Below are positions 644-59,040 of a stretch of 64,000 nt of DNA, piece after piece. This DNA is from Odoribacter sp. (GTDB taxonomy: Bacteria; Bacteroidota; Bacteroidia; Bacteroidales; Prolixibacteraceae), in assembly GCA_013824715.1 (NCBI GenBank), contig PNOH01000003.1:1-64000 (forward strand), given 5' to 3'. Each line of letters starts with the position of its first letter. The first letter of the stretch is position 1. A program made the position numbers and the translations under genes. Under the pieces are notes generated by a model. That model had not been told where the DNA came from. It did not search any database and saw nothing but the letters and a program-made list of their open reading frames with translations.

Positions 644-3600
644 ATGAACCTCATTCAGGAAATAATAACAGGCTTATTATGTCTTGTCGTTTACGTTGCC
701 CTATGGGAATTGACCCTGCGGAGCCGGCGAAACGAACCTTTTCTCCTTCGGAAAAATATCAAAATAGTTTTTAAGTCCCTCTGTTACGCAACTTCCGACT
801 TCATTTCTTCCAACATACAATCAAACGGGCAGTATCCGCGATTATTGCAAAAAGCCAAACGTTTTTATGAACCCATCACCCATTCTTTCCTTACGTTCTG
901 CAAATCCAACAGGAAAGAAAACCGAATCGAATACATTCATTTGGGTGGTTTCCTTGCTCCTGACGGGCAGAAACAGGCAAATTTAATACGTAGTTTTTTT
1001 GATTTTAATCCGGGTTTACTGCTTCGTTTGATTTGGAGACCAAGGGTTTTGGCGGTAGTGCTGATCTTGCTGGCATTTGCCAATGTGAATGGGGCAACAC
1101 GAACTGCATCTGTTTCCGGCAACTGGAGCAATCCGGCAACCTGGGGCGGCACTGTTCCTGTAGCTGGAGATGACGTGGAAATTGGCGATGGAGTTACGGT
1201 TACCATTGATGTTGATCCTCCGGCTTTGGCTTCTTTGACCATCGGAAAACTTGCTGCTGGAACTTTGCAGTATGAAAGTGGAAACGCACGAACAGTAACG
1301 GTTAACGGAATTGTTCGGATCAAACCGGGCAGCACATTCAGGAGCGCCCCTGCCGGATCGACCAGTACCATCACGACACATTCGTTGGTGGTTGGTCAAA
1401 GTTTGATTAACGATGGTACGCTCGATTTTAGCGCCACTGCAGGAGCAGGCGGTACCACAGCAAACGCTTCAGGTGCTGGTATTACCTTTACCGGGATACC
1501 CAATGAAACCTTTGACTGTTCAGCCGCGACTTTAACAAACCTGCGTCAGGTCAATGGTTTGATATTAAATAAAGGCACTTCAGCTTCATCAGTGCTTTCT
1601 TTCACTCCCGGAAATACGTTCCAGGTTTTATCTGATGGTTCCGCAAGCGCAAAGGGATTCCTGTCCATTTCGAACGGAACATTTAGCATTATCGGTTCCA
1701 ATACTTTTAGCAATCCTGTATTCAATAGCAATGGAAGTTATACAATTCCTTCAACAGGCGGATTGTGGCTCGGTAACTCCAATGCAACGATTATTGCAAT
1801 GGATGGTACCGTAACCAACCTTGGAGAACTGAAAATTACCACTGGAATCTACAATATCGGCATTTCTTCGGGAAACTCATCGGAAACCAACAGTAGTGGC
1901 AAGTTCATATTATTAGATGGCACTTTAAATATTGCTGGCAGGTTTAAAATCAGTGGAGGAAAAGGGACGATTTCAGGAGGAACTATGAACATTGCAACTA
2001 TAGGTCATGCAAGCGCCAGTGAAGGCGCTTTCCATGTGACTTTAAGTGCTGATCTTGATATCTCCGGGGGTCTGATCACATTTACCCGTCCCAACTCCAA
2101 TGCAGTTCCGTTCAACGACATTGAAATTTTGAATAGTACCGGAACAAAAACGATTACCGGTGGAACCTTCCAAATAGGAACTGCCACCACGCCTGCCGGA
2201 AGTACTTTTAAGGTAAACAGCGATATTCCACTTTATAATTTGACTGTTTTTAACAGCAATACCAAAGTTTCGCTGACCGACAACCTGACTGTAAATAATC
2301 AGCTTACCCTGAACGGGCAATTGTTGTTAAATGACAAAAATCTCACTTTAGGTATTACTGCACCATCAATTGCAGGCTCTCTGGGAGCCGCAGACGGAAT
2401 GGTTGTTGCAGGTCCCGGCGAAATCCGGAAAATGATTTCTGCTAATGGTTCCTTCACTTTCCCGGTTGGTGACGTTACCGGAACAGCAGATTACACACCT
2501 GTAACACTGAACTTTACCAGTGGGACTTATGCTGCCGGAGCGTATGCAACTGTAAAGGTTTTTAACTCAAGACACCCAAACAACAACAATGCAACCAATT
2601 TTCTAAATCGTTACTGGGCCGTTACCACTTCAGGAATCACCAATCCGGTTTACAATGTTAACGCAACTTATACCAATACTGATGCAACCGGAGATGTTAC
2701 AGGGTTTATCGTTGGAAGTTATTCTACTAACTGGTCGAAAATCATCGGTGCAACTTTTGGTTCAAATAATTTAACCATCACTGGTGCAACACAAGGTATA
2801 ACATTCACTGCCTTAAGCGAACCGACAATTACCATCACCAACGTTCCAAATCCTGCTTTTGTTTGCAACAACTCACCCATAACTTTAACATCTACCACCA
2901 CTGCAGACCCGGTAGCAACTTTTGCATGGACTTCAATTCCCGCAGGATTTACTGGTTCTACCCAAGATATTACCGTAACCCCAACCATCGCTGGCACTTA
3001 CAACGTAATGGTTACTGTAACTGATGGCAATGGGTTTACTGCTGAAGATGAAATTACTGTAAATATAAATCCTTTGCCAACAGCAACAATCTCTGGAACT
3101 ACTGCTGTTTGCCAGAATGCAATTGCTCCGAACGTAACTTTTACCGGTGCTACCGGAATAGCCCCCTTCACTTTTACCTATACGATCAATGGTGGATCGA
3201 ATCAGGCATTAGCCACCACCAGCGGAAACAGCGTTACTATTGCAGCGCCAACTGGCACAGCCGGAACTTTTACCTATTCCTTGGTTAGTGTTCAGGATGC
3301 CAGTTCCACAACTTGTTCGCAAAGTCAGGCAGGTACAGCAACCATCACGGTCAATCCGACACCAACAGTTACCAATGCCGCGAGTGCAAGCACCTGCAGC
3401 GGAACAGGTCCGAATATTGCATTGACAGCAAGTACACCGAGCAGTTTTTCCTGGACAATCGGAACAATAACTGGTAGCATCACGGGAGCCAGTGCCGGAT
3501 CAGGAGCAACGATCAATCAGGTTTTGACCAATCCAAGCAATGCAACAGCCGGCACCGTGCAATATGTCGTTACTCCAACTTCAACTACCGATTTATGTGC

Positions 3601-6600
3601 AGGGACGCCCTTTACCATTACCGTTACAGTTAAACCGATTCCTGTTGTAACGGCTACCCCTTCTTCTCAAACCTTTTGCACCGGTTCTTCAACTTCCATT
3701 TCGTTAACCAGTAGTGTTGTTGGAACCACCTTTGACTGGACTGTTGTTCAATCCGGAGTCTCTGGAGCATCTAACGGTTCAGGGGCAACAATTGTACAAA
3801 CGCTGACCGCAACCGGAGCCTATGCAGGAACTGCCACTTATTCGATTATACCAACTGCGAATGGTTGTGCAGGATTGCCTGTTACTGTTGTCATTACTGT
3901 TAATACTCCACCTGCTATCACTCTTGATATTGCTGATCATTCTACCTGTAAAGATGTGGTGGTAACTTTTACTGCCGGTGCAAGTGGAACACCTACACCC
4001 ACGGTACAGTGGTATGAAAACGGAAACCTCATGACTGGCCAAACCTCCATTACGCTAACCCTTACGGCAGCGCCAAATATGAATAATAATAAATACAAAG
4101 CTGTATTTACGAATATATGTGGAACTGCTACGACTACAGAAGCCAAACTAATCGTTGGGTCACCGTTAAATGTTGATGCAACAAATACTACTGTCATATC
4201 TTGTGATGGCAGCTCGGGTAGTGATGTTTATTTAACTGCTACTGCCAATGGAGGTAATGGGGTGCTTTTAGGGCAATGGTTGCGAAGTATAGATAATGGG
4301 GCTACCTGGCAAGTAATCCCGGGAACAACTGTTACAACCACGAATGGAAACCTTACTATCAATTATCAAATCTTAGGAGGTAACTCATCCTATTTGTATA
4401 AAGCTCAGTTTATTAATGGCGGATGTGCCGAAAGTTACAGCGGGATTCAAAAGTTAATTGTAGTCCCTAATTCCTCTATGACAAAACCTTCAGACCTGAC
4501 AGTCTGTAACGGACAACCTTCAACTGCTATCGATTTTGGTGCTTTGGCTCCAAACGCGAACTACTTCAATTGGACGAACAATAATACAAGTATTGGCCTT
4601 GGAGCAAGCGGTACTGTAACCACTACCTTCCCTTCTTTTACTGCAACTAATGCAACCGCAAACCCAATCACAGCAACGGTTACAGTATATCCAATGTACA
4701 CCGGTGGTACCAATCCTTGCCAGGGACTGCCTCAAACTTTTACCATCACAGTCAACCCAAGTCCAGCTGCTCCTGTTGGTGTTGATGGTGTCAGTTGTGG
4801 TCCGGGCACAGTTACGCTCACTACCTCAGGATGCACTGGTGGAACATTAAACTGGTACAATGCTGCAAGCGGGGGTTCGTTGATAGGTAACGGCAGTCCC
4901 TGGACAACCCCATTTCTGAATGCAACAACAGATTTTTGGGTATCCTGCACCATGAACAGTTGTGAAGGGCCAAGAACAAAAACAACTGTAATAATACGGC
5001 CTGTAGATCCGGGAACTATTGCTTCGAATCAATCCATTTGCTCCGGTACAGTTCCTGTTCTTTCAAGCTTAACGCCTGCAACTGGTGCTCCTAGTGTTAC
5101 TCTCGATATTCAGTGGGAAATGAGTACTGATGGTGGAAGCACATGGACTGCTATCGGCGGCGCAACATTCCAGTCATATAGTCCACCGGCTTTAACTCAA
5201 ACGACTTTGTACCATAGGAAGGTCACAGGTACGAAAGGAGGCCCTGGCTGGCCATGTATTGGATACTCCAATGTTGTTACTGTAACAGTTAATCCTACCC
5301 CAACTTGTTCAATAACTGGTTCTAATTCGGTTTGTTCTGGCTCGACCAATAGTTATACTTCAACAGTACTTCCTGCCGGAGGAACCGTAACCCATTTATG
5401 GACGATAACCCCCCTTGGTGCTGGTACAATTAGTGGTTCTAACACAGGCGCTACAGTTACTGTTATTGCAAATGCAGTATGTGCCACCTCAACTTTTACG
5501 ATTACCGACAATAGTTCCAGAGATGGATGTACAACCAGTTGCTCGCTGGTTGTTACGGTTAATCCGCCCCCACTTCCTGTATTTAATGCACCTCCCGGAA
5601 ATACCACCGTTGCTTGCGGAGCAATTCCAGCACCGTCCATATTGAGTTATACGAACAGTGGAACAGGAACTTGCCTCATAAGTGGTTCGGTTACATCAGT
5701 GCAGACATCTCCACCTGGCCCATGCGGTGGAACGGTAACCGAAACCTGGTCAGCAACAGATGCGTGCGGCAGGGCGCTTGCTCCGGTTTCAAGAATTATC
5801 ACGGTTAGCCCGGCCGCATTGCCAACGATGACTGTACTGGGGTCTGTAACAGTTGCATGTGGATCAGTACCCGCAGCGAGTACCATAGCTTATACCAATG
5901 GAGGAGCAGGAGGATGTTTAATCAGTGGAACATCCAATCTTTCCACGTTTTCAGCACAGGCACCTGCTGGTGCATGTGGCGGAACGATCACCGAAACCTG
6001 GACAGCAACCGATGCCTGCGGCAGAGCGCTTGCTCCGGTTTCAAGAATTATCACGATCAGCCCATCGGCTTTGCCAACAATGACTGCACCAGGCGACATC
6101 ACCGTAACTTGCGGTGCTGTACCTACTACGAGTACCTTAACTTATACGAATGGGTTAAGTGGAACATGTCTGATTACAGGCACTTCAACCACATCCACAT
6201 CCACATTTACGACACTTGCAAGTAATTGCGGCGGAACAATTACCGAAACATGGACTGCAACTGATGCTTGCAACAGGCCACTTGCAACTGTCTCAAGAAC
6301 AATAACGGTACAGGACAATAATAAACCTACGGTCACCGCCCAACCCCAAAATGGTTTTTCAGACTGCGTTTCAGTTGATCCGATGCTGGATGCCGGATTC
6401 ATAGCATGGTTGGCTAATCAGGGCGGAGCGACAGCAACTGATGATTGTGATAATGCACTTGATTGGACGAATAACAGCGCTACCCAAACCTGGGTTATCA
6501 ATCTGGTAAACCATACCAAAACCATAACAGTTACTTTTAAGGCAACCGACGATTGTACCAACTTTATTGAAACTTCACCAGCAACTTATACCTTGAATGA

Positions 6601-6898
6601 TGATCTGCCTCCAACCATAGATTGTCCCGTAAATTTAACTGGTACTGAGCCTGATCTGTTCGAAGATTTTGTTTCGGGCAATGGTTGTACCTGGATTCCA
6701 ACAACTATTCCTAACCCAACTTTTAATGATATATGTGGAGTAACAAAACTGACCTATGTTCTTTCAGGAGCTACTGTTGGCGTTAGTCCGGCAACAGGGT
6801 TTAATTATGTAAGTGGCGCTACGCTCAACTTAGGTATCACAACAGTAACCTACACGGCACATGATGCAGCGGGCAACAGCAGACAATTTCTGTGTTGA
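644..6898 (+). CDS. Giant secreted repeat protein (G8-like, PKD-like and HYR-like domains), N-terminal part, frameshifted
   Basis: This is probably a very large surface adhesin. A hydrophobic segment ending in AFANVNG, encoded near 1050-1090, looks like the real signal peptide, so the true start may be as late as a TTG at 1028; ATG 644 and TTG 590 are alternatives. After it comes a GNWSNPATWGG motif typical of G8-like N-termini (about 1090-1330), then a beta-helix-like region, then a string of PKD-like/Ig-like modules (about 2800-5300), and three closely similar HYR-like modules with CGGTxTETW and TDAC motifs (5580-6310). The frame ends at a TGA created by a frameshift at 6882/6883, and the protein continues in another frame in the next entry. 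The HYR modules are also similar at DNA level, which favours recombination. No enzymatic motif was seen, and binding or filament function is inferred from domain type only. Confidence 0.8.
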   Translation: MNLIQEIITGLLCLVVYVALWELTLRSRRNEPFLLRKNIKIVFKSLCYATSDFISSNIQSNGQYPRLLQKAKRFYEPITHSFLTFCKSNRKENRIEYIHLGGFLAPDGQKQANLIRSFFDFNPGLLLRLIWRPRVLAVVLILLAFANVNGATRTASVSGNWSNPATWGGTVPVAGDDVEIGDGVTVTIDVDPPALASLTIGKLAAGTLQYESGNARTVTVNGIVRIKPGSTFRSAPAGSTSTITTHSLVVGQSLINDGTLDFSATAGAGGTTANASGAGITFTGIPNETFDCSAATLTNLRQVNGLILNKGTSASSVLSFTPGNTFQVLSDGSASAKGFLSISNGTFSIIGSNTFSNPVFNSNGSYTIPSTGGLWLGNSNATIIAMDGTVTNLGELKITTGIYNIGISSGNSSETNSSGKFILLDGTLNIAGRFKISGGKGTISGGTMNIATIGHASASEGAFHVTLSADLDISGGLITFTRPNSNAVPFNDIEILNSTGTKTITGGTFQIGTATTPAGSTFKVNSDIPLYNLTVFNSNTKVSLTDNLTVNNQLTLNGQLLLNDKNLTLGITAPSIAGSLGAADGMVVAGPGEIRKMISANGSFTFPVGDVTGTADYTPVTLNFTSGTYAAGAYATVKVFNSRHPNNNNATNFLNRYWAVTTSGITNPVYNVNATYTNTDATGDVTGFIVGSYSTNWSKIIGATFGSNNLTITGATQGITFTALSEPTITITNVPNPAFVCNNSPITLTSTTTADPVATFAWTSIPAGFTGSTQDITVTPTIAGTYNVMVTVTDGNGFTAEDEITVNINPLPTATISGTTAVCQNAIAPNVTFTGATGIAPFTFTYTINGGSNQALATTSGNSVTIAAPTGTAGTFTYSLVSVQDASSTTCSQSQAGTATITVNPTPTVTNAASASTCSGTGPNIALTASTPSSFSWTIGTITGSITGASAGSGATINQVLTNPSNATAGTVQYVVTPTSTTDLCAGTPFTITVTVKPIPVVTATPSSQTFCTGSSTSISLTSSVVGTTFDWTVVQSGVSGASNGSGATIVQTLTATGAYAGTATYSIIPTANGCAGLPVTVVITVNTPPAITLDIADHSTCKDVVVTFTAGASGTPTPTVQWYENGNLMTGQTSITLTLTAAPNMNNNKYKAVFTNICGTATTTEAKLIVGSPLNVDATNTTVISCDGSSGSDVYLTATANGGNGVLLGQWLRSIDNGATWQVIPGTTVTTTNGNLTINYQILGGNSSYLYKAQFINGGCAESYSGIQKLIVVPNSSMTKPSDLTVCNGQPSTAIDFGALAPNANYFNWTNNNTSIGLGASGTVTTTFPSFTATNATANPITATVTVYPMYTGGTNPCQGLPQTFTITVNPSPAAPVGVDGVSCGPGTVTLTTSGCTGGTLNWYNAASGGSLIGNGSPWTTPFLNATTDFWVSCTMNSCEGPRTKTTVIIRPVDPGTIASNQSICSGTVPVLSSLTPATGAPSVTLDIQWEMSTDGGSTWTAIGGATFQSYSPPALTQTTLYHRKVTGTKGGPGWPCIGYSNVVTVTVNPTPTCSITGSNSVCSGSTNSYTSTVLPAGGTVTHLWTITPLGAGTISGSNTGATVTVIANAVCATSTFTITDNSSRDGCTTSCSLVVTVNPPPLPVFNAPPGNTTVACGAIPAPSILSYTNSGTGTCLISGSVTSVQTSPPGPCGGTVTETWSATDACGRALAPVSRIITVSPAALPTMTVLGSVTVACGSVPAASTIAYTNGGAGGCLISGTSNLSTFSAQAPAGACGGTITETWTATDACGRALAPVSRIITISPSALPTMTAPGDITVTCGAVPTTSTLTYTNGLSGTCLITGTSTTSTSTFTTLASNCGGTITETWTATDACNRPLATVSRTITVQDNNKPTVTAQPQNGFSDCVSVDPMLDAGFIAWLANQGGATATDDCDNALDWTNNSATQTWVINLVNHTKTITVTFKATDDCTNFIETSPATYTLNDDLPPTIDCPVNLTGTEPDLFEDFVSGNGCTWIPTTIPNPTFNDICGVTKLTYVLSGATVGVSPATGFNYVSGATLNLGITTVTYTAHDAAGNSRQFLC

Positions 6899-7675
6899 GG
6901 TATTTAGTGTTAGCTACCAAATAGATGCTGACCCGGTGGTATCGGTTCCGGTAGTAGTTGGGTCACCCATACCGCCGATCAGCCGGAGGTTTACAGTTGG
7001 GTTGCACACAATAACCTGGACAATTGTTAATGCCTCCGGAACACCTTATACTTGTACTCAGACGGTTACCGTAACCGACAGTCAACTTCCAACAATTACC
7101 TGTCCGGTAAGCAGTAACGTCACTGATCCTGATCTGTTCGAAGATTTTGTTTCGGGCAATGGCTGTATCTGGATTCCTGTAGGTATTCCTAACCCAACTT
7201 TTGGTGACAATTGTACTGTTGTTGCAGTTACTTATACGCTTTCAGGAGCTACTGTTGGCGTTAGTCCGGCAACAGGGTTTAATTATGTAAGTGGCGCTAC
7301 GCTCAACTTAGGTATCACAACAGTAACCTACACGGCACATGATGCAGCGGGCAACAGCAGTGCACCCTGTGCGATCAGGGTTTGGATTAAAAATATAGCC
7401 AATCCGCGATTTACAGTAACGTGTCCGGCAGGCACAGATAAAGACATTGTAGTTTCAGCCGAAACAGGAGTATGTGATGCAGCGGTAACAGTACCATCGC
7501 CTGTAATCGACAATTTCTGTGTTGAGGTATTTAGTGTTAGCTACCAAATAGATGCTGACCCGGTGGTATCGGTTCCGGTAGTAGTTGGGTCACCCATACC
7601 GCCGATCAGCCGGAGGTTTACAGTTGGGTTACACAATATAACCTGGACAATTATCAGTGCATCCGGAACACCTTA
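6653..7675 (+). repeat. 627-bp coding tandem duplication, first copy with a 149-bp deletion
   Basis: The stretch 6653-6882 recurs nearly identically at 7131-7360, and 6883 to about 7048 recurs at 7510 to about 7675. The second set is offset by 627 bp, but the first copies are only 478 bp apart because the 149 bp at 7361-7509 have no counterpart in copy 1. Since 149 is not divisible by three, the missing block causes the frameshift. The junction (…CAGCAG|ACAATTTC…) has at most one base of shared homology. Confidence 0.9.
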
Positions 7676-8789
7676 CACCTGTATCCAAAAGGTGACGGTT
7701 ACCGATATGCAACTTCCGTCCTTGACTTGCCCGGCAAGCAAGATTGTTGCAGCAGATAACGGGAAAAGCTTTGCATCAAATGTACAGGTACTTCCACCTA
7801 CCTACAGCGACAATTGCCCCAATGCGGTGTTGACCTGGATCATGACAGGAGAAACTACCGGAACCGGTACAGGCGACCCATCGGGTATAAACATTGTTCC
7901 AAGCCCCAACACGTTTAATGTGGGAGTTACCACCATTAGGTACACGTTGACCGATGTAAGTAACAACCCTGTTACCTGTTCGTTCACCATTACAGTTACC
8001 TCGCAACCCGACATTACCTGCTTGCTGGACATCGTTCACGATACCGACCCAGGAGAATGCAACTATACGGTTAACCCTGGAGCGCCTGTTTTGAACGACG
8101 GGGCACAACCCATTGACTGGACCTATACCATTGGCGGTGGATTACCTGTAACTTTTGTTGGAAGCATTGGAAATCCAGGTCCTCCAGACATTGGCGATTA
8201 CGATTTCCCGGTGGGGATTACAACCATTACCTGGACGGCGACCAATTCTTCGGGCAGCGATCAGTGTACGCAAACCGTTACAGTAGCCGATAATGAACCG
8301 CCAACATTCACCACAGCCAACACGGTAAGCTATTGTGTGGAAAATATCCAGAACGCGGTTTATAATCCGACTCCAAATCTTTCAATTACGCCGGAATATG
8401 ACGATTTAACTACACCGCGGCCCGAATACTACCGATTAACCGCAACAAGTAAACTTTTAGACCTCGATCCAGTGGCAAACAATTTTAACGATAACTGCTG
8501 TGCCGACAATTTATTGATCATTCACTGGGAAATTATTTTCGCCTCAACACCCAATCCTGCAACGGCTGCACATGAACTGGTTACAAAACCTGCCATACTT
8601 GGTCAAACAGGTCAACCCTCAGCTTATGGTGATATTGATTTCCCCGGCGATGGGGTGAATTTTACGGATATCATCCATCAGATAAACTACTGGCTGGAAG
8701 ATTGCAATGGAAATCCTGCCTCTAACCCAGTCATACATACAGTTAACATCATTATAAAACCACGGCCAAACGTAGTAAAAGTGCCATAA
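6861..8789 (+). CDS. Giant HYR-domain protein, C-terminal part after frameshift
   Basis: This frame continues the preceding protein. From about 6885 it encodes HYR-type modules (VTDxQLPTITCP, TWTATNSSGSDQCTQTVTV) up to a stop at 8789. The nominal N-terminus (ATG 6861) lies inside the previous repeat and is unlikely to be a natural start. Comparing the two copies of a 627-bp repeat shows that the first copy lacks 149 bp found at 7361-7509; restoring it would fuse both frames into one protein of about 2,770 residues. The C-terminus ends in a short basic tail and shows no recognisable T9SS type-A or type-B sorting domain, so its route to the surface is unclear. It may act together with the neighbouring sorted protein. 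It could also be an assembly collapse. Confidence 0.75.
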   Translation: MMQRATADNFCVEVFSVSYQIDADPVVSVPVVVGSPIPPISRRFTVGLHTITWTIVNASGTPYTCTQTVTVTDSQLPTITCPVSSNVTDPDLFEDFVSGNGCIWIPVGIPNPTFGDNCTVVAVTYTLSGATVGVSPATGFNYVSGATLNLGITTVTYTAHDAAGNSSAPCAIRVWIKNIANPRFTVTCPAGTDKDIVVSAETGVCDAAVTVPSPVIDNFCVEVFSVSYQIDADPVVSVPVVVGSPIPPISRRFTVGLHNITWTIISASGTPYTCIQKVTVTDMQLPSLTCPASKIVAADNGKSFASNVQVLPPTYSDNCPNAVLTWIMTGETTGTGTGDPSGINIVPSPNTFNVGVTTIRYTLTDVSNNPVTCSFTITVTSQPDITCLLDIVHDTDPGECNYTVNPGAPVLNDGAQPIDWTYTIGGGLPVTFVGSIGNPGPPDIGDYDFPVGITTITWTATNSSGSDQCTQTVTVADNEPPTFTTANTVSYCVENIQNAVYNPTPNLSITPEYDDLTTPRPEYYRLTATSKLLDLDPVANNFNDNCCADNLLIIHWEIIFASTPNPATAAHELVTKPAILGQTGQPSAYGDIDFPGDGVNFTDIIHQINYWLEDCNGNPASNPVIHTVNIIIKPRPNVVKVP

Positions 8790-9186
8790 TATTTAAACCC
8801 TAAAATAAAAAAGTATGAAACAAGAACTTAAAAAAGTAAAAAGCACTGAAAGCCAAAACCGGTTAAACATCAAGGATATTTGTACCGGTCGAATCAAAAT
8901 CGCAGGAAGTATAAACGCGAAAGTGCCTGCATCCAACGGTACTTCAAACATCTTCCTGATCCAAAACCAAGGGAAAGCGCCGCCAGGCCGCCCACGTAGT
9001 CCGGGCTTAGGCTTTGAGAAGCCCCCGGACAATAAGGCTGGCCCGCCTCGGGGCTTCCCCCTCTCTTTTCAAAGAGAGGGGCCAGGGGTGAGTTCGGCGC
9101 AAAGCCAAACTAATTATTCGATTGAAATACAACAAATTAATACAACTAAATATTCAAATTTTTACAAACATTTAATTTTTTTTATC
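8790..9186 (+). other. Intergenic region with a REP-like palindrome ahead of the 365-aa secreted protein
   Basis: A reading frame is open through this stretch from 8815 and fused to the next gene, but its product is low-complexity and lacks a signal peptide. I treat it as non-coding. It contains a strong hairpin with perfect 11-bp arms (9058-9068/9071-9081) followed by GGGGTGAG, resembling REP elements, and a second weaker GC-rich fold at 9001-9028 (CCGGGCTT…AAGCCCCCGG). An AT-rich leader (9110-9186) then precedes the ATG at 9187. Confidence 0.55.
9058..9081. repeat. REP-like palindrome
   Basis: Perfect 11-bp arms CCCCTCTCTTT/AAAGAGAGGGG with a 2-nt loop, followed by a GGGGTGAG foot. Palindrome plus GT/GG-rich foot is the usual form of REP elements mobilised by REP-associated tyrosine transposases, and a remnant of such a gene lies at 11583. 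Confidence 0.6.
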
Positions 9187-10284
9187 ATGAAAAAGCAAAT
9201 TTTAATTTTCACGGTTTTTGTATTGGCTCTTTTTGCCAGTACTAAGTCTTTTGCACAAGACCTTAATTACATCCCTGCTACAGCCTGCGCCCCTGTAACA
9301 GCTATACCCTGTGCAGTTGCAGACGCATTACACCCAATTCCTGGGAATACTTATACCTATACGGTAACAGTTGCTCCAGGTGTTACTACAGGCTATATTC
9401 AATGGTTTGCATATAATGCAACTACAACTGGTACTCTTATTACAGGGGGTTCAATGGCAGCTGCAATTGCAGCTGCAGAAGCTAATGGAGGAGCAAGTCA
9501 ATATCTTTTATCTGCTGGTGCAAATTATAATTTGACTACAAGCACAAGTAATTCAATTACTGCTTCTTGGCAATCTTTTGATGGCACTGCAAGACAAATA
9601 TTATTGGTAGCCTATGTTAAGGGAGAAGGTGGCTGTTCCGACAATATTGAAGTATTTCGTATTCAGCCAACTTTTTCATTTACTCTTGATATTGCAGGTT
9701 TAATGCCTTCAGGTGCATTGCCTGTTTCTGGAAATGCAGTTGAATGCGTAACTCCAGTTCAGTCGGCTGTTTATACTGCTCCAAATTTGACAATGGATTA
9801 TGGTGACAATTATGTATTCTTTACTGTAACCGCCGCAAATTTTGTTCATTCATGGACCCCAACATTTACGATCCCAACTAACACTACAGCAACTACTGTT
9901 GCTGTTTCAGATATTACATGGGCTTACCCAACTGAAGCTGTTAAAACTGCTCCTCTTGGAACATGGAATGCTGCGACTGCCCCTGTGTTGGCTGTGGCTG
10001 GTAGTGGAGCGGTTGGTGCTGGTGGTGAATGTATCATTGTTAGGGTACATTTGGATCATGGAGCCAACGAAAATGATGCTGCTGGTGCCATTACTATTGG
10101 TGTTGATGGTGTAATGTATAACGTCCCAACAACTAATTATGGTAATGCAGCTCTGCAAGATTTGGACCCTGGTGCAGCACCCGGACCATGTACCAATACT
10201 GTAACAGATGCAGCAACTTACGATCTAACTCCAAGACCTGCAATTACAACAACTGCTCCTCTCGTATTTGAAAATAAAAACTAA
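9187..10284 (+). CDS. Secreted 365-aa protein of adhesin/T9SS locus, function unknown
   Basis: The start is set at ATG 9187 because it gives a clean signal peptide (MKKQILIFTVFVLALFAS… ending SFAQ); the frame is open upstream but does not look coding. The mature part opens with a Cys-containing segment (DLNYIPATACAPVTAIPC) and a TYTYTVTV strand that resembles small Ig/PKD-like secreted proteins found in Bacteroidota beside gliding-type adhesins and PorP-like proteins. It is rich in Ala, Thr and Val and has several Cys. No T9SS sorting domain or catalytic motif is seen. Its position between the giant HYR protein and the PKD-like and sorted proteins suggests a structural or accessory role at the cell surface, which is inference. 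Confidence 0.75.
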   Translation: MKKQILIFTVFVLALFASTKSFAQDLNYIPATACAPVTAIPCAVADALHPIPGNTYTYTVTVAPGVTTGYIQWFAYNATTTGTLITGGSMAAAIAAAEANGGASQYLLSAGANYNLTTSTSNSITASWQSFDGTARQILLVAYVKGEGGCSDNIEVFRIQPTFSFTLDIAGLMPSGALPVSGNAVECVTPVQSAVYTAPNLTMDYGDNYVFFTVTAANFVHSWTPTFTIPTNTTATTVAVSDITWAYPTEAVKTAPLGTWNAATAPVLAVAGSGAVGAGGECIIVRVHLDHGANENDAAGAITIGVDGVMYNVPTTNYGNAALQDLDPGAAPGPCTNTVTDAATYDLTPRPAITTTAPLVFENKN

Positions 10285-10348
10285 TGTTTTGATCGAGTAT
10301 GTTTTTTCATGAAACCCTATACTTTTTCCGGTTGGAAGCCTCCCCCAA

Positions 10349-10640: not shown

Positions 10641-10812
10641 AATATCCAAACCGGAATCTGTTCGCAAACCGAACTTGAAACATGGAATTTGGAACTTGAA
10701 ACTTTTAATGAAAGGAGAAATGCCCATGAATAAAGGTCGGACGCCGGAAATCCAAAATTGCAAATCCATGGAAAAGTCCGGAGGAAAGCCAAAAAGAGAA
10801 GCCCCCTTCCTG

Positions 10813-10828: not shown

Positions 10829-11013
10829 TGATGTCGCTTCGGGGGAGAGGGTTCGGTTGAAGAAGCGCCTCAATAAATGGGTGGATTGCAATGTCTTTCC
10901 ACCAGAGAATGATGATTGATGAGATACGGGTTTCGGGTTACGAACTCCGTGATCCGCCAAGTGGCGGACTGTGCATCGCCAAAAGGCGAATGTGTTTAAA
11001 AATAAAATAGCTA

Positions 11014-11050
11014 ATCCGCCAGGAGGCGGACAAGTGATGAATATTCAATA
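11014..11050 (+). repeat. CCGCC-hairpin plus GTGATGAATATTCAATA repeat, copy 2
   Basis: ATCCGCCAGGAGGCGGACAA followed by GTGATGAATATTCAATA matches copy 1 at 10601 with a small deletion in the tail. Confidence 0.75.
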
Positions 11051-11108
11051 TATCTGTCGGCCAAACAGGCAGGCCATAACCAGTGATGCTGATCGGAGCA
11101 TTCTTGCT

Positions 11109-11128
11109 CCCTCCCCCTGCGGGGAGGG
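11109..11128. repeat. REP-like palindrome
   Basis: Arms CCCTCCCC/GGGGAGGG with a 4-nt loop and a CTGGGGTGGGG foot. This is the best match in the window to a classical REP unit (hairpin plus GTGG-type foot). It sits 26 bp before the 30-bp array. Confidence 0.6.
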
Positions 11129-11154
11129 CTGGGGTGGGGCTATCCATAAAGGTC

Positions 11155-11394
11155 GGGGCGATCTATGGCGCACATCCGGTTCAAGGGGCGACCCGCCGGC
11201 AGTTTGCGAAGCTCGTGGCGATCCACCCTGGATGTACACTCCCAGAGGCGATCCTCCGATCAATACCGAACCGAGGGGCGATCCACCTGAATTAATCCGA
11301 ACCAGAGGTCATCCACCTGAGATCAGGAATGCGAGAGATGGGCCCACTGGGGCAAACGGAACGAGGGGCAAACCTCCGGAGATGAAAACCAGAA
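11155..11394 (+). repeat. Exact 30-bp-period array, 8 units, encoding RGDPP-type decapeptides
   Basis: Eight units begin at 11155, 11185, 11215, 11245, 11275, 11305, 11335 and 11365, with no drift in spacing. Each starts with a conserved core close to GGGGCGATCCACC, followed by about 17 variable bases. In one + frame the units read RGDLW, RGDPP, RGDPP, RGDPP, RGDPP, RGHPP, RDGPT and RGKPP, each plus five variable residues. The last three units are the most degenerate. The opposite strand is also open, reading GGSPL-type decapeptides across the better-conserved units. The conserved-core/variable-spacer layout recalls a repeat array, but the core is too short and degenerate for a CRISPR. Confidence 0.8.
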
Positions 11395-11582
11395 GAAACA
11401 ATTCTTTTAAAGAAGAATTGGTATTCAGGATATTAGCTGGTCCAATTGGGCCGCATGGGAGAGGTATGCCCGGACGGGAAGGGATAGTGAAACCACTTTC
11501 GGGGTCTGAAACCACCGAAAGGGTTGGAAGGGTTGAAAGGAAAGTTACCCCATCGGCGGTTTTACACCCCGAAGGAGGTTAT

Positions 11583-11954
11583 ATGACAAAAAAATATAAA
11601 CCTGAAACCCAGTTTTCACATCTTTTTAATTCATACGCCCAGGCTTATAATAAACGATTTGGTCGAACCGGAAGTCTGTTTCAACATCCTTTTAAACGAA
11701 AGCTTATTTCGCACGAACGGTATTTAAAACATGTGATTCTATACATCCATAATAATCCCGTCCACCATGGCTTTTGCAGTCAAGCTATGGAATATCCCTG
11801 GTCGAGTTATCTGAGTTGCATTTCAATAAAACCGACCAAATTGAAGCGTGATGCGGTGATAGGTTGGTTCGATAGTGATGCGAATTTTAAAAATGTACAC
11901 AATGAAAAAATTGATTTTGAAAAGATTGAAAAATGGCTCGGTATAAACGAATAA
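11583..11954 (+). pseudogene. REP-associated tyrosine transposase (RAYT), 5'-truncated remnant
   Basis: The 123-residue product matches the C-terminal half of Y1/IS200-like REP-associated transposases: QFSHLFNSYAQAYNKRFGRT (tyrosine region), GSLFQHPFKRK, then YIHNNPVHHG and YPWSSY blocks. The N-terminal part with the HUH metal-binding motif is absent; upstream sequence is the repeat island. An unusually good Shine-Dalgarno (AAGGAGGT, 11572-11579) stands just before ATG 11583, so the fragment might still be translated. RAYTs mobilise REP palindromes, and several REP-like hairpins lie within 2.5 kb, so this may be the decayed source of those elements. Without the HUH domain it should not be catalytically active by itself. 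Confidence 0.8.
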
Positions 11955-12193: not shown

Positions 12194-13285
12194 ATGAATG
12201 ATTTTTTGCAAATAGTCCAATTGATTCAAGCCACACGCTACCGGGCTTTGATCTCAATAAACAGCGAGTTGGTAAATCTTTACTGGCAGGTTGGTCAATA
12301 CGTTTCAATGCGTTTGGAGAAAGCCTCCTGGGGTGATGGGACGGTGGCCGAATTGGCAGAATATATCAAAAAGCATCATCCAGAAATCAAAGGATTCGAC
12401 AAAAGGAACCTTTATCGCATGTGCAAGTTCTATCAATCCTATAACGATATGCTATTTGTCGCACCACTGGTGCGACAAATTCAAGAAGTTGATAATGAGC
12501 CGATAATAATTGTGTCACCACTGGAACCACAATTACAGGATACATCATCAGGCTTGAACGACTTAAGCGATATTCGAAACACCCTATTGGCTCAAATTAG
12601 CTGGTCGCATCATTTGATTATCATGGGGCGTTGCAAAACTGCGGATGAAAGGGAATATTATGTCCGGCTTTGCATCAGGGAACATTACAGCAAACGCGAA
12701 TTAGGCCGTCAAATCAATAGTTCAACATTTGAACGGGTGATGTTAGGCAATGCCAAATTACCCGAAAGCATCCGAAAATTGCCGCAGGAAATGACCAATG
12801 TTTTAAAAGACAGCTATGTATTTGAGTTCCTTAATTTGCCGGAACCTTATATTGAGAACGATCTGCGCAAGGCATTGCTGCACGAATTAAAGCAATTTAT
12901 TCTTGAATTGGGTCCCGACTATCTGTTTGTAGGAGAAGAGTTTCCAATTAAAGTTGGCAATCGCGATTTTCGGATCGATCTCGTGTTTTTTCATCGCACA
13001 TTACAGTGTCTGGCTGCTTTTGAGTTAAAAACAGACCGTTTCGAACCCGAATATCTGGGGAAAATAAATTTTTACCTTGAAGCGCTCGACCGCGATGTAC
13101 GCAAATCAAATGAAAATCCGAGTATTGGCGTGTTGCTATGTAAAGACCGGGACGAAGAAGTGGTGGAATATGCGATGAGCCGAAGCCTTAGCCCAACAAT
13201 GGTTGCCCGGTATCTGACACAAATGCCTGAAAAGAAATTATTGCAACAGAAACTGCACGAACTGTTTGAAAATGAGGAAAAATAA
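12194..13285 (+). CDS. DUF1016/YhcG-family PDDEXK nuclease
   Basis: The 363-aa product has the two-part structure of YhcG/DUF1016 proteins: a helical N-terminal domain (about 1-190; NLYWQVGQYVSMRL and KGFDKRNLYRMCKFYQSY) and a C-terminal PDDEXK-like nuclease domain (about 200-350). The nuclease core is visible as FRIDLVFFH followed by AAFELKTDRF, giving D…ExK. Such genes often travel with restriction-modification or other defence or mobile modules, but no methylase or specificity subunit is present here. It sits alone in the debris that interrupts the adhesin locus, consistent with arrival by transfer. Length is normal for the family and no damage is seen. Its biological role is not established. 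Confidence 0.88.
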   Translation: MNDFLQIVQLIQATRYRALISINSELVNLYWQVGQYVSMRLEKASWGDGTVAELAEYIKKHHPEIKGFDKRNLYRMCKFYQSYNDMLFVAPLVRQIQEVDNEPIIIVSPLEPQLQDTSSGLNDLSDIRNTLLAQISWSHHLIIMGRCKTADEREYYVRLCIREHYSKRELGRQINSSTFERVMLGNAKLPESIRKLPQEMTNVLKDSYVFEFLNLPEPYIENDLRKALLHELKQFILELGPDYLFVGEEFPIKVGNRDFRIDLVFFHRTLQCLAAFELKTDRFEPEYLGKINFYLEALDRDVRKSNENPSIGVLLCKDRDEEVVEYAMSRSLSPTMVARYLTQMPEKKLLQQKLHELFENEEK

Positions 13286-13427: not shown

Positions 13428-14099
13428 ATGAAGAAACTCTTGTACATAGCACGTTATCCGGCATTGGCAGCCCTGCTGCTTCTGCTGCTGGCTTTGGCTC
13501 CTGCCATGGCCCAGAACGTCGTGTACCAGGGCGAAACCACTACTTTAACAGTTGATCAAATGCCGGGCGATAGTTACTTCTGGGAAATTTATAGTGACGG
13601 AACAGTTAACTTTGCTACAGTGCCAGGAAATTGTCCGGTTACATCTGCTATTTTTGTGGGAGGCAATACCGGGACCAGTGTTGATGTTAAGTGGTTACAA
13701 CCTGGCATCTATTTCTTTAAAGTTACGGCGCAAGATATAACCGGCTGTACCAATAATATTAAAATAGGGATGGTCGAGGTGAAGCCATCGATACCAACAG
13801 CGGTACTGACACAACCTGATCCGGATTGGATATGTATTGGAGATCAGGCTTTTCTTGAAGTCACACTTACAGGGGTTGCTCCATGGGAATTTACCTATAC
13901 CGACGGGACCAGCTTCTGGACTGTGAAAAATATTGCCGGCGTAAGCTATCAGTTACAGCTTAGCCCTAAAGCAACAGCCCAATACTGGATAACCTCGGTG
14001 AAAGATATAAACGGGACAAACCCGGCGCCTTCGGCCCGCGTGTTGGTAGTTGTTAATCCGAAACCTGAAAGTTCAAAAATATACCAACATGAACCGTAG
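13428..14099 (+). CDS. Secreted PKD/Ig-like domain protein of the T9SS adhesin locus
   Basis: ATG 13428 is chosen because it starts a typical signal peptide (basic MKKLLYIARYPA, a Leu-rich core, then PAMAQ). The 223-aa product then has two beta-sandwich-like modules. The first (about 25-115) contains DSYFWEIYSDGT and QPGIYFFKVTAQDITGC, which is PKD-like. The second (about 120-215) contains PWEFTYTDGTSFWTV and YWITSVKDINGT. It ends without a sorting domain. Small proteins of this type commonly sit just before the large gliding-motility C-terminal-domain protein and PorP/SprF gene in Bacteroidota, as here, suggesting a partner or scaffold of that surface complex. This role is inferred from context. 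Confidence 0.8.
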   Translation: MKKLLYIARYPALAALLLLLLALAPAMAQNVVYQGETTTLTVDQMPGDSYFWEIYSDGTVNFATVPGNCPVTSAIFVGGNTGTSVDVKWLQPGIYFFKVTAQDITGCTNNIKIGMVEVKPSIPTAVLTQPDPDWICIGDQAFLEVTLTGVAPWEFTYTDGTSFWTVKNIAGVSYQLQLSPKATAQYWITSVKDINGTNPAPSARVLVVVNPKPESSKIYQHEP

Positions 14100-14451: not shown

Positions 14452-17400
14452 ATGAGAGCGTATAAATACATATTTGCAATGGTACTTCTGATCGCTGCTT
14501 TACAGGTAGCCGGGCAGTCGTATGTGATTGATCAGGTATGTGTAGGCTCCGTCAGGCAATACCGGATCGAGGGAGAGGCCGGCTCTACCTACAATTGGTT
14601 ATTAAAGAATGATGTAACACAAGTCAATGTTCCGATTCCCAATTCTTCAGGAACACCTTTCACAAAAACAAACGGGAAGACCATTTACGGAAATGAAATC
14701 TCTATTGAATGGAAACAAACCGGCACGTTCAACCTGTCAACTGTCCAGACTTCATTGCTCGGATGCGACACCCTGGAACAGGGACTGGTGGAAGTATATG
14801 ATATACCCACAGTAATGGCAGGAACCCCCTTAACAGTCTGTATTGATATGAAGGTTGGCCTGACCACTGCTTTTGCAACGAATCACAGCAGTTTACTCTG
14901 GACCTCAAATGGAGACGGAACCTTTGACAATCCGCTTGCTTTGCATACCAGCTATAATATTGGCCCGAATGATGCAATTGCCGGCAGTGTGAAGCTTACG
15001 CTTACCGCACAGGGAAAAGGAAATGGTACATCGTGTAATCCGGTTTCTTCAACCTTAACTGCAACTTTAAAAATTATACCCAAACTGGTGATCAACAACC
15101 CTGCAGAAGTTTGCCTGCCAGTAACGGTTGATCTTAGAACAGCGATAGCAGCAGGCAGTGACTCTGATTTAAGCTTCGAATACTTTACTGATTCTTTGGC
15201 TACCATAACCCTGGCTAATTATATGGCCGTAAATAAAAGCGGCACTTATTACATCCGGGCTACCAGTAACTCAACCGGTTGCGCCGTAATGAAACCTGTA
15301 AAGGTTAAATTTACCAAACAAATTGTTCCTTCATTTGCACATATTCCTGAAGTTTGCCTGAACAGCGCCAATCCACCTGTTTTGCAGCCATCAGATTTTC
15401 AGGGAATCGGAGGCTCCTGGTTGCCCTCAGTCGTTCTGACGGATAAGCTGGGAAAATTTCCGTATAAATTTACGCCTGATCCGGGCCAATGTGCCAAAGA
15501 CACCACTTTCTGGATTGAAGTAAGTAATTCAATCAAGCCCGTATTTAACTTACCTGTCAGTTTGTGTTTGGGTGATGCACCTTTAAGCTTGCCAACTGTT
15601 TCAAGCAATGGTATTTCCGGGATTTGGAGCCCTGCCATTGTCAACGCCAGTTCAACCGGAATTTTCACATTTACCTTTACCCCTGATCCGGGACAGTGCG
15701 GTGTAACACTGTCCGTTCAAGTTACCATTACTCCTCCGGCAAGTCCGCCAACGTTTACATTCCCGGAAATTTGTGTAGGAAGTATTCCTCCTGCTTTGCC
15801 AACAAGATCGAATGAAGGAGTTACCGGCACCTGGAACCCGGCCATCATTTCAACGGCTACGGTTGGAATCATGAACTATACCTTCACCCCATTTTCAGGC
15901 CAGTGCCGGCAAATCCGAATCGAACCAATCGAAGTGATTGATAAAACTATACCTGTGTTCGATCAGCCTGGGCCACTCTGTTTGAATAGCGCCCCTGTCG
16001 TTTTACCAACTACTTCTAAAAACGGTATTACAGGAACATGGGCTCCTTCAACGGTTACAACCAATGTGCCGGGTAAATTCACCTTCACATTTGTTCCTGC
16101 ATCGAATTTGTGTGCAACGGGTTTGACTATGGATGTCGAAATTTATCAGGAGATAAAACTTGTCATTACAGCCGACCCATTACTGACCTTTGGGGGAACA
16201 ACCAATGTGACGGTAACCTCAACCGGAGGATCAGGAACCTACACTTCAGGAACAGGGACTTTTATCCGTTCAGCCGGATTGCACCCTTTTACTGTGACTG
16301 ATGATCATGGATGTTCAGGCTCAGGAACGGTATTTATTCAAAATCCTCAGGATTTGGATGTTACTACAACTGTTAAACCCATGAAGTGTGCCGGCTCTCT
16401 TGCTGAAGTTGCCGTAACTGTTACCGGAGGAACAGCTCCTTATACTTTCAGTTATACGGGCGGCGATCCTTCGTACATACCATTTAATTTGAATACCTTT
16501 CTGGTAAGGGCATCAGCTAATCCTTATGTATTTGCGGTTACCGACAGTAACGGATTGCGTGGAGAATCTCTTCCATTACTGATTAGCGACCCTCCCGGAT
16601 TTAAGCTGACAGATTCAATGACTGAACCATTGTGTTTCGGAGGGAGTGACGGAACGGTAACTGTTACCGCGACTGATTGGGTTGGAACAGTATCCTACCA
16701 GTGGAATGACCTGCTAAAACAAACTACTGCTACAGCTACCGGTTTAATAGCGGGAAGTTATACGGTAACTGTAACCGACGATTGTGGCCCGAAACAGTTA
16801 ACCCTCATGGTGACTGAACCGCAGGCAATTACCTTAACTGCCCTTGGAACCGGCAGCCAATGCCCTGGTTTTGATGGGAGTATTCAATTTGTAATTACTA
16901 ATATTCCCGATGGAATTTATAATATTTCACATTCGTCAGGACAATTTAATTCCGTCACATTTTCAGGAGGAAAATCTACCCCTATTTCGGCTGCTCCGGG
17001 CAGCTATACTGATTTGAAAATCTCATACAATGGCTGTATTTCTGCAAATGGGGTAAATGCTACAGTAAATCAGGCTCCTGTTCAGCTCACCGACTTTTTT
17101 GTTATTCATCCGACCTGTAAGGTTTCTTCCGGAGCAGTACTTATAACCAATCCCAAACCAAATTCAGGATTTGAATACCGTGTTGACAATGGTACCTATC
17201 AGGCTTCTGCAACTATTGCCGGATTAGCATCGGGTGTTCACCAGCTTTTAATCAGGAAGCTGAGTACAGGATGTGAAACTGACACAACGTTTACAATCAA
17301 CGCTCAACCAGTCACACCGGCTAATCCAACGGCCATCCCGGTTTCGGCAGTTTGTGAAACCAGCCCTGTGCAAACACTCCATGCCAATAGCGGTATTGCC

Positions 17401-19854
17401 CCTCCTCCTGCCGGGACTACCATTATCTGGTACGACAAAGCCACGGGGGGCAATGTTGTTGCTTCGCCAATCCTGAATAAGCCCGGAAGCGTAACTTACT
17501 TTGCCGAAGCAACCAATGGAATATGCACCAGCCCGGGCCGGACCCTGGTTACACTGAGTATAATTCCAATGCCTGTTGCCCCGGTAAGTTCAGGAGATTT
17601 GCAGGTATGTGTGAGTTCACCGGCTGTAATGCTCGATGCCCGGAATGCTATTCCCGCCGGAAGTAAAAATATGATTTGGTACGATAGCCCGGTTGGTGGT
17701 AATGTGGTGGCTTCACCGACATTAAACACCATAAAGACAGTCACTTATTATGCCGTAGAGTCAAATGGTATTTGTGCCAGCGCGCCACGTACCCCGGTAA
17801 AACTGACTATATATCCATTGCCCGCCAAACCTGTTGTGGCAATGGCTGCTATGCCTAAATGTACTGATACTTATGGCGTGATTGAAGTAAAAACCCCGAT
17901 AGGTCCTGAATATGTTTATAGTATTGACAACGGGCCTTATCAATCATCAACAGTTTTCAACAATAGCCCGGGAAGTCACTTTTTCAGGGTAAGAAATACC
18001 AATACCAAATGCGAGTCAGATACAACAGTTATTAAGGTCCCCGCGATACCACTTGTTCCAAAGATAAAAAAGCTTACTGCTGAAGATTGTATTTGTTTTG
18101 GTGATTCAGGCAGGATGAGTTTCGATTTTGAAAATGTTGCGGATGGAAGCTATGTAATCATCTATCTGGGAGGCAAATTTGAAAATGTTAAAGTATTGAA
18201 TGGTAAAGCTCAGTTTAAGGCCGTGGCCGGAAATTACAATGTACTGGCTATTGAAGCCAATGGATGTACTTCATCCGAAAATTGGAATGTAACAATTAAG
18301 CAACCCGACCGCATTTCGGTTAGCGCTGTTATTACTGAAATTGATTTAAAATCTCAAACGCAGAGCGCTATCAATATTAGTATTACCGGGGGAACAGGAT
18401 TCTATAAGACCATTTGGGCCCCTGATGCCACAATTTCATTCCCGGGAGCCACTACTGAAGATATTTCCAATTTAACTAACGGTAAATATTTAGTAACCGT
18501 TACTGACCAGAATGGTTGTCAATATCTGGATACGCTAATTATTCCAACACCTAATTTGCCACCAATCGCAACCAATGATGAGTTTTTTGCCGGATGTTCG
18601 GGAGTATCAGGAGATATAGTTTATGGCGATAACGGTTTCGGAAAGGATTATGATCCGGAAGGAGATACTCTTTTTGTTGACCGGACCCTGATTGAAATTC
18701 CGAAACACGGCACCTTAATCCTGAATCCTGATCAATCCGGAAAGTTTACCTATATGGCCGATCAGGGATATACCGGGACAGATCAATTCCAGTACGTAGT
18801 TTTTGATGTGAAGAAGAATACCAGTAACCCGGCCAAAGTTCTTATTCATGTCGTTTCTGATTTTGATTGCGACGGAATACAGGATGAACTCGATCCGGAT
18901 GCTGATGCCGATGGAATCCTGAATGTGGATGAAGTTTCTGCTGGTCAGGATTGGAAAACTGCCGATACCGACGGCGATGGCCACCCGAATTGGCTGGACA
19001 TTGACGCGGACAACGATGGGCTGGTAGATATTTATGAAGGGCAGAGCACGGCAGGGTATATTGCTCCATTGAACATGGATACCGATCACGACGGAATTGA
19101 TGATGCCTTTGATACCGATCAGGGCGGTACCCGCGTTATTCCGGTTGATACAGATTCCGCATTATCGGATGGAGACGGAATTCCTGATTTTCTGGATGCT
19201 GACTCGGATAATGACTGGGTGCCTGATTACATTGAAGGTCATGATTTAAATGCCGATGGCAAACCCGACTTTGCGCTTGGGGGAAAAGACGCTGATGCCG
19301 ATGGATTGGACGATGGATTTGATACCGTAAACAGGTTCGCTTCCCAAAATGCCAACATGACCGGGAGCAATGCTGCCATGCAGGATTTCGATGGCGACGG
19401 ACAGACTGACTGGCGTGATGAAAACGACGACAACGACCAGTACCTGACCCGTTTTGAAGATTTGAATGTGGATGGGAATTATAGCAACGATGATATGGAT
19501 TTTGACGGACATCCTGAATATCTGGATTATGGAAGGGATTGCGATTTGTTTATTCCTGAAGCATTCTCGCCAAACGAAGATAATATTCACGATTACTTCC
19601 AGATCTATTGTATTAATCACTTCCCGAATGCCAAAATGTATATTTTTGATCAGTTGGGAAATAAAATCTACGAGAAAGATCATTATGGAAATATGGAATT
19701 CTGGGGAACAGCCGACCGTGCATGGTGGGATGGAAGAACGGCCAATCGTTCAGCATCGGTAAATGATGGAAAAGTTATCCAGGGAACCTATTACTATGTT
19801 CTTCAGTTGGGCAATGGTGAAGTCAAAAAGAGTTTTGTATTTGTGTCGTATTAG
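14452..19854 (+). CDS. Large surface protein with SprB-like, Ig-like, TSP3-like repeats and T9SS type-B sorting domain
   Basis: The 1800-aa product has a signal peptide (MRAYKYIFAMVLLIAALQ…). Then come several repeats of about 80 residues containing NGITGTWxPxxV…FTFTPDPGQC (15310-16140), SprB-type repeats (GGTAPYTFSYTGG, GSYTVTVTDDCG; 16160-16830), Ig-like modules with the IIWYDKATGGNVVASP pattern (17390-17820), and a cadherin-like/Big_9-type module at about 18555-18850. A Ca-binding-type Asp-rich TSP3-like region (DxDxDGIxD; 18860-19520) follows. The last 105 residues (CDLFIPEAFSPNEDN… FDQLGNKIYEKDHY…GTYYYVLQL…FVFVSY) form the gliding-motility-associated type-B C-terminal domain, which directs export through T9SS. 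It is probably the exported partner of the PorP/SprF protein downstream. Confidence 0.92.
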   Translation: MRAYKYIFAMVLLIAALQVAGQSYVIDQVCVGSVRQYRIEGEAGSTYNWLLKNDVTQVNVPIPNSSGTPFTKTNGKTIYGNEISIEWKQTGTFNLSTVQTSLLGCDTLEQGLVEVYDIPTVMAGTPLTVCIDMKVGLTTAFATNHSSLLWTSNGDGTFDNPLALHTSYNIGPNDAIAGSVKLTLTAQGKGNGTSCNPVSSTLTATLKIIPKLVINNPAEVCLPVTVDLRTAIAAGSDSDLSFEYFTDSLATITLANYMAVNKSGTYYIRATSNSTGCAVMKPVKVKFTKQIVPSFAHIPEVCLNSANPPVLQPSDFQGIGGSWLPSVVLTDKLGKFPYKFTPDPGQCAKDTTFWIEVSNSIKPVFNLPVSLCLGDAPLSLPTVSSNGISGIWSPAIVNASSTGIFTFTFTPDPGQCGVTLSVQVTITPPASPPTFTFPEICVGSIPPALPTRSNEGVTGTWNPAIISTATVGIMNYTFTPFSGQCRQIRIEPIEVIDKTIPVFDQPGPLCLNSAPVVLPTTSKNGITGTWAPSTVTTNVPGKFTFTFVPASNLCATGLTMDVEIYQEIKLVITADPLLTFGGTTNVTVTSTGGSGTYTSGTGTFIRSAGLHPFTVTDDHGCSGSGTVFIQNPQDLDVTTTVKPMKCAGSLAEVAVTVTGGTAPYTFSYTGGDPSYIPFNLNTFLVRASANPYVFAVTDSNGLRGESLPLLISDPPGFKLTDSMTEPLCFGGSDGTVTVTATDWVGTVSYQWNDLLKQTTATATGLIAGSYTVTVTDDCGPKQLTLMVTEPQAITLTALGTGSQCPGFDGSIQFVITNIPDGIYNISHSSGQFNSVTFSGGKSTPISAAPGSYTDLKISYNGCISANGVNATVNQAPVQLTDFFVIHPTCKVSSGAVLITNPKPNSGFEYRVDNGTYQASATIAGLASGVHQLLIRKLSTGCETDTTFTINAQPVTPANPTAIPVSAVCETSPVQTLHANSGIAPPPAGTTIIWYDKATGGNVVASPILNKPGSVTYFAEATNGICTSPGRTLVTLSIIPMPVAPVSSGDLQVCVSSPAVMLDARNAIPAGSKNMIWYDSPVGGNVVASPTLNTIKTVTYYAVESNGICASAPRTPVKLTIYPLPAKPVVAMAAMPKCTDTYGVIEVKTPIGPEYVYSIDNGPYQSSTVFNNSPGSHFFRVRNTNTKCESDTTVIKVPAIPLVPKIKKLTAEDCICFGDSGRMSFDFENVADGSYVIIYLGGKFENVKVLNGKAQFKAVAGNYNVLAIEANGCTSSENWNVTIKQPDRISVSAVITEIDLKSQTQSAINISITGGTGFYKTIWAPDATISFPGATTEDISNLTNGKYLVTVTDQNGCQYLDTLIIPTPNLPPIATNDEFFAGCSGVSGDIVYGDNGFGKDYDPEGDTLFVDRTLIEIPKHGTLILNPDQSGKFTYMADQGYTGTDQFQYVVFDVKKNTSNPAKVLIHVVSDFDCDGIQDELDPDADADGILNVDEVSAGQDWKTADTDGDGHPNWLDIDADNDGLVDIYEGQSTAGYIAPLNMDTDHDGIDDAFDTDQGGTRVIPVDTDSALSDGDGIPDFLDADSDNDWVPDYIEGHDLNADGKPDFALGGKDADADGLDDGFDTVNRFASQNANMTGSNAAMQDFDGDGQTDWRDENDDNDQYLTRFEDLNVDGNYSNDDMDFDGHPEYLDYGRDCDLFIPEAFSPNEDNIHDYFQIYCINHFPNAKMYIFDQLGNKIYEKDHYGNMEFWGTADRAWWDGRTANRSASVNDGKVIQGTYYYVLQLGNGEVKKSFVFVSY

Positions 19855-58966: not shown

Positions 58967-59040
58967 AACTTCCGACTCCGGACTCCGGACTTCGGACTTC
59001 TGACTTCGGACTTCTGACTTCGGACTTCGGTCTTCTGACT
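58967..59040 (-). repeat. Right arm of the GAAGTCGG repeat flanking the four-helix-bundle gene
   Basis: AACTTCCGACTCCGGACTCC followed by several GGACTTCGGACTTCTGACTT units. It is the inverse of the left arm at 58519-58555 and the same family as the coding repeat at 37473-37558. Confidence 0.85.

Follow-up and report, generated by a model that had tools for sequence, protein, structure and literature searches.

A ten-codon repeat ahead of a CHU_C adhesin operon in Prolixibacteraceae that probably belongs to a small protein gene

A tandem array with an exact 30-nt period, lying ahead of an adhesin operon in a genome assigned to Odoribacter sp. (Prolixibacteraceae), raises the question of what is being repeated. 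The initial annotation of this DNA offered three answers: a decayed protein repeat with RGD motifs, a DNA-binding array, or an unrecognised repeat element. From analysis of the surrounding 64,000-nt stretch (the window) and of related genomes, we consider it probable that the array forms the repetitive part of a gene for a small protein, which fronts an operon for a secreted protein, a CHU_C adhesin and PorP.

The array as a coding repeat

Eight in-frame units occupy positions 11154-11393 of the forward strand, rather than 11155-11394 as first assigned, and the register is strictly 30 nt across all eight units with no indels. Each unit consists of ten codons, R-G-D-P-P-x5, and the RGDPP-type decapeptides described earlier are borne out over the full array: RGDLWRTSGS, RGDPPAVCEA, RGDPPWMYTP and RGDPPINTEP in units 1-4, and RGDPPELIRT, RGHPPEIRNA, RDGPTGANGT and RGKPPEMKTR in units 5-8. 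As had been noted, the 5' half of the unit is conserved (MGN GGN GAY CCN CCN) and the 3' half is variable. The claim of a core recurring without drift holds for the register but not for the core itself, which reads RGDLW in unit 1, RGHPP in unit 6, RDGPT in unit 7 and RGKPP in unit 8. The array is real, as its identity at lag 30 (101 of 210 positions in its best 210-nt stretch) exceeds anything seen in first-order Markov simulations, which peaked at 86 over 60 windows of 64 kb and at 83 over 300 runs that kept the local composition. Tandem Repeats Finder gives only 2.6 copies, an undercount explained by the divergence of the units. The window also holds short tandem repeats with a 7-nt unit (AAGTCGG, ACTTCGG), at 37474-37557 and 58968-59040.

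Comparison among relatives establishes that the ten-codon units are constrained as protein (R-G-D/H/K/N-P) at an orthologous place, and it argues firmly that the repeat is one of protein, not of DNA or RNA. The unit length is a multiple of three and one frame runs open through all units, 240 nt without a stop or indel in the window; the open frame is an unbiased indicator in the window only, since the units of the relatives were chosen by that frame. We pooled 20 units from five species (eight from the window, four from L022, three each from L020 and L063, and two from L024). L080, L025, L028 and L023 did not contribute to this set, nor did the first unit of L024, which is divergent, or its later parts. 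In codons 1-4 of the pooled units, identity is 0.90-1.00 at position 2 and 0.26-0.46 at position 3, and the arginine codons alternate between AGR and CGN. For the second proline codon, identity is 0.65 at both of its first two positions; each of the other four core codons scores higher at position 2. Variation in the core tracks the genetic code: pN/pS in the plus frame is 0.31 for the eight window units and 0.23 for all 20, and none of 300 column-order shuffles reached so low a value in either set, although unit comparisons inside one array are not independent. When letters were shuffled within columns, core amino-acid identity in the plus frame gave a z of 2.8, the highest of the six frames, followed by 2.0.

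The same pattern is found between genera. At the end of the array, the window (RGHPPEIRNARDGPT) and L080 (RGDPPEIWNNRDGPF) share 11 of 15 residues, nine of them encoded by a different codon. Six anchored segment pairs across genera, which share sequences and hence are not independent, give a pS of 0.67, a pN of 0.22 and a ratio of 0.32; a seventh pair was skipped for unequal length. Even the variable parts are partly kept between genera (e.g., EIRNA/EIWNN). The protein-repeat option of the initial annotation is thus sustained by constraint at codon positions, by synonymous exchange and by the repeat being conserved in place in other species.

That annotation had also described the array as open on both strands. 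The plus frame is open from 10953 to 11954 (first listed start GTG at 10971) and holds REP-like DNA, the array and a transposase remnant, but the minus frame that reads GGSPL-type peptides is broken inside the window array by a TGA arising from the RGHP unit (frame -1: ISGG*PLVRI). The remaining four frames through the array carry two to three stops each. The synonymous versus non-synonymous comparison that had been proposed for the two frames finds the plus frame constrained and the GGSPL frame (minus frame 1) also low (0.36 in the window, 0.27 for 20 units); the two frames share their wobble positions. Over the units of eight loci, the GGSPL frame has stops in four (the window, L020, L063 and L028) and is open in L022, L024, L025 and L080, and a minus-strand gene was rejected on these stops. 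Since they decide half of the loci, the choice of strand also depends on the plus-strand starts and on N-terminal likeness.

Genomic setting and relatives

The cluster around the array runs, in order, through a giant PKD/HYR adhesin, a secreted protein, the repeat ORF, a second secreted protein here called A1, a CHU_C adhesin and PorP/SprF. The giant adhesin is present as two overlapping frames (590-6898 and 6861-8789), possibly a frameshift or assembly error. On the forward strand follow the upstream neighbor of the array, a secreted protein ending in FENKN (8815-10284, own start 9187); A1 (13434-14099), next downstream among the conserved genes, for which orthologues were aligned; an 1800-aa adhesin with a CHU_C type IX sorting domain, Ig_7 and an SprB repeat (14452-19854); and a PorP/SprF type IX secretion membrane protein (20282-21220).

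Further conserved features lie in the gaps of this cluster. A second small Pro/Gly/Arg-rich ORF (8815-9186, forward strand), with the core GKAPPGRPRSPG at 8971-9006, is found at ten loci, two of them variant (SNIFLIQNKGKGPPGRxRSPG; core GKGPPGRxRSPG); its third codon positions are variable, and it is fused in frame to the secreted-protein gene in the window and in L062. Between the secreted-protein gene and the array lie two elements on the forward strand, T1 and T2. T1 (TTTTTCATGAAACCCTATACTTTTTCCGG, 10303-10331) recurs at the same place in relatives (L020 5046, L063 3074, L022 4596, L080 2722); it has one copy per genome and, when up to two mismatches are allowed, is present in four of 140 genomes of the family. 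Its longer form TTTTTCATGAAACCCTATACTTTTTCCGGTTGG (10303-10335) is identical over 33 bases in the window, L020 and L063, despite A1 proteins that are 53-55% identical to that of the window in the latter two. T2 (10710-10792) is a block around TTTGCAAATCCATTGAAT, whose flanking CCGGA/TCCGG could pair as judged by eye, with sites at L020 5179, L022 4919, L063 3799 and L021 4466. Its reading frame is not conserved and shifts in L063, so its conservation is at the DNA or RNA level. The gaps of these adhesin operons are thus home to a number of conserved small ORFs and to DNA elements present in single copy, none of which matches a searched family library.

No second array was found in the source genome by DNA, protein or profile searches, and the remaining DNA matches there were either weak or due to the REP-like element (11101-11141). 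Copies do occur at the same place in related genomes. A protein search of 101 genomes returned ten genomes with a match at E 0.1 or better: that of the window, four of the same genus (E < 0.002) and five weaker ones (L015-L019, E 0.002-0.1), three of which contain stops. All four same-genus matches lie between the secreted-protein gene and the A1-type gene, codirectional with both. Scanning named genomes with the A1 protein yielded nine loci, six of which have the repeat ORF, including two Mariniphaga MAGs (L025, with two copies, and L028) and Sunxiuqinia elliptica (L023). An eight-member profile matched strongly in nine of 140 genomes of the family; the single new find was G148 (L080), as eight of the nine matched genomes had supplied the profile. 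At all nine loci the ORF has the same place and strand before an A1-type gene; L023, L025 and L028 had been found via the A1 gene and the other six had not.

The A1-type gene is present in 49 of the 140 family genomes. Of 25 A1 loci checked by motif and by eye, four (G172, G147, G143 and G148) were members already known. Three others, G150, G171 and G173, have a single-unit relative of the ORF preceding A1, and G045 has a weaker one. Within the genus, the array is found in five of the ten genomes with a strong A1 orthologue, that of the window included. It was not seen in the other five (G014, G016, G017, G020 and G021), of which G020 has a contig that ends about 470 nt past its nuclease gene, too early to judge absence. 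Wider samples, 393 genomes from the order and 395 from the phylum, yielded just the genome of the window and one chance match, and the repeat ORF would thus appear confined to Prolixibacteraceae as far as sampled. The chance match, G761 (E 0.0017), is antisense to a 587-aa ORF, which we take to be isoleucyl-tRNA synthetase, and has no 30-nt period. A match in G164 (E 0.05) was dropped for its internal stops.

Unit number ranges from 1 to 13 across relatives and differs in whole 30-nt steps with the frame unbroken, and may change through in-frame slippage or unequal crossing-over. The longest array belongs to L080, where an ORF of 179 aa starts at its own ATG and contains 12 units (13 if an RDGP unit is counted), near-identical to one another, unlike the old, diverged units elsewhere. 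Small ORF copies stand in tandem in two Mariniphaga-like genomes (L080 3238-3432 and 3710-4249; L025 4804 and about 5130). Directly behind the 12-unit ORF, L080 4246-4692 encodes a 23S rRNA intervening-sequence-type protein (PF05635).

The predicted product and the window copy

The relatives' ORFs begin MQNNRYGP, MGNNRNGP, MVNNKHGP or MINNRGGP, or more loosely MKSNQSSP, MKNKQYGP or MTNNNRGK, and three of five of their first ATGs have an A at -3, a base that favors initiation in Flavobacterium johnsoniae (PMC6847099). Beyond the units there is a short tail, with a GRGMP/GRSMP stretch in some relatives only: in the window it lies at 11457-11471, within the C-terminal segment that follows the array (11394-11489, forward strand), its counterparts are HGRGMS in L020 and NGRSMP in L080, and in L024 it is out of frame. 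The pI exceeds 9 in seven of ten products and is 4.9 in the 12-unit product. AlphaFold models of five sequences, with a mean pLDDT of 57.8, a pTM of 0.14 and one four-residue helix, suggest a product without a predicted fold. The repeat protein has no match in Pfam, NCBIfam or the PDB and no convincing one in PHROG, where the best match of the L080 product covers 21 residues at E 0.0024 and is not annotated with a function; a phage origin is unsupported, PHROG being the sole collection behind that result. None of the titles listed in a literature search, which covered mainly open-access journal papers, concerns this repeat. An integrin-type reading of the RGD motif is not upheld: the D gives way to H, N, K, A or E among units and relatives, and the N-termini MQNNRYGP and MGNNRNGP of intact relatives are not signal-peptide-like as judged by eye. 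On present comparisons this is an unclassified small-protein family, but of an ordinary kind. With it, type IX adhesin loci would gain a family in which species differ in repeat number by whole decapeptides.

The window copy departs from this picture at both ends. Upstream, a REP-like element (11101-11141, forward strand) abuts the gene of the array at the point where that gene starts in relatives; the element stops at 11141, at the relatives' first codons, leaving IHKGRGD, of which IHKG (11142-11153, forward strand) is the remnant of an N-terminal segment seen in relatives as SPHKGRGDPR and GPHVGRGHPR. Four further places in the genome match the element at E < 1e-3, and in each the match ends at query base 42. 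Downstream, the frame enters the C-terminal half of a REP-associated tyrosine transposase (11586-11954, forward strand), which matches positions 82-146 of the 146 of NCBIfam NF047646 at E 3.6e-11 with 43.1 bits against a cut-off of 80, and is thus a remnant rather than a whole domain. Both flanking features named in the initial annotation are therefore present. Over 116 aa, the remnant shares 65.5% identity with a 236-aa frame that occupies this gap in G017. G017 has no array and was alone among the loci compared in having such a match. A YhcG-type PDDEXK nuclease gene (12194-13285, forward strand) is also inserted in the gap and is shared, at 84% identity, with G020; together with the related frame in G017, this indicates that the gap collects insertions. 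With REP-like DNA lying over the start and the frame continuing into the transposase remnant, the window copy is probably fused or damaged. A REP-like stretch also lies inside the repeat frame of L024 and, with the native start gone in the window, suggests that the gene tolerates damage. The description of the array as decayed thus fits both ends of the window copy but not the array, whose codons are open and constrained. We propose that the insertion of REP-like DNA removed the native start here and that the in-frame transposase remnant marks a gene that has been fused or is nearing loss.

Competing accounts and known systems

In the account we prefer, the product would be a short repeat protein, disordered and mostly basic, encoded in the leader region of the adhesin operon and acting with or on that operon. 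A possible though unlikely alternative is that the ORF is a translated leader acting in cis, in which ribosomes slowed at DPP motifs tune the adhesin operon downstream, a second Pro-Gly ORF doing likewise for the upstream gene. A ribosome footprint is about 30 nt, about the spacing of the DPP motifs. The constancy of place and strand before the same gene at nine of nine loci is consistent with such a role, as are the conserved PPG-bearing ORF that also fronts the previous gene and the presence of T1 and T2 in the same gap, single-copy where found and in the same order in four species. DPP and PPG are both named as arrest motifs (PMC6544042; for EF-P, PMC11611912). Against this, the second proline is poorly conserved (0.65), PP is absent from two of ten products and so does not run through all members, and the distance to the downstream gene varies, with another gene standing between the repeat ORF and A1 in the window and in L080. 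A more specific form, in which serial DPP sites 30 nt apart, numbering 1 to 13, set adhesin output, seems improbable. A small disordered protein expressed together with the adhesins ranks, in our view, slightly ahead of an adhesin-tuning translated leader.

It is quite unlikely that the array is a neutral remnant of a once larger repeat protein. The REP-like overlay of the start and the fusion to the transposase remnant in the window would fit such a history, but 240 nt free of stops and indels, with constrained codons, would not, and relatives have short versions with their own starts. A DNA or RNA element open by chance, whether a protein-binding array, a structured RNA or a REP-type repeat, is very improbable. 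The adjoining T1 and T2 are conserved as DNA, but variation in the array falls at third codon positions and at the synonymous first positions of AGR/CGN. Its predicted folding does not surpass that of shuffles (z of +1.26 and +0.56 for the two window strands, +0.10 for L080 and -1.31 for L022), no Rfam family matches, and no further copy was found in the genome; we discarded on these grounds both the DNA-binding array and the unrecognised repeat element. A multi-core precursor of a modified peptide, with RGDPP as conserved recognition part and the five variable residues as core, is scarcely credible, as the scanned neighbor genes match no modifying-enzyme family and the variable parts are partly kept between genera.

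Set beside known systems, the small protein gene resembles the EF-P-dependent diprolyl leader peptides (PMC6544042) in being a short ORF before an operon with DPP or PPG motifs. Unlike them, it has many serial motifs, PP is not universal and the distance to the next gene is not fixed. The REP/RAYT system (NF047646) is represented by the REP-like DNA and RAYT remnant that flank the window array. The array itself, however, is not a REP. In the Borg elements of archaea, the length of the repeat unit is reportedly a multiple of three. These elements have in-frame coding tandem repeats that create disordered regions (PMC9879509). The present repeat likewise has a multiple-of-three unit within an ORF, a variable copy number and no predicted fold. 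Unlike the Borg repeats, it occupies one locus, among chromosomal-type flanking genes; outside L080, its units are old and have diverged instead of being near-identical; and it is kept by place across genera.
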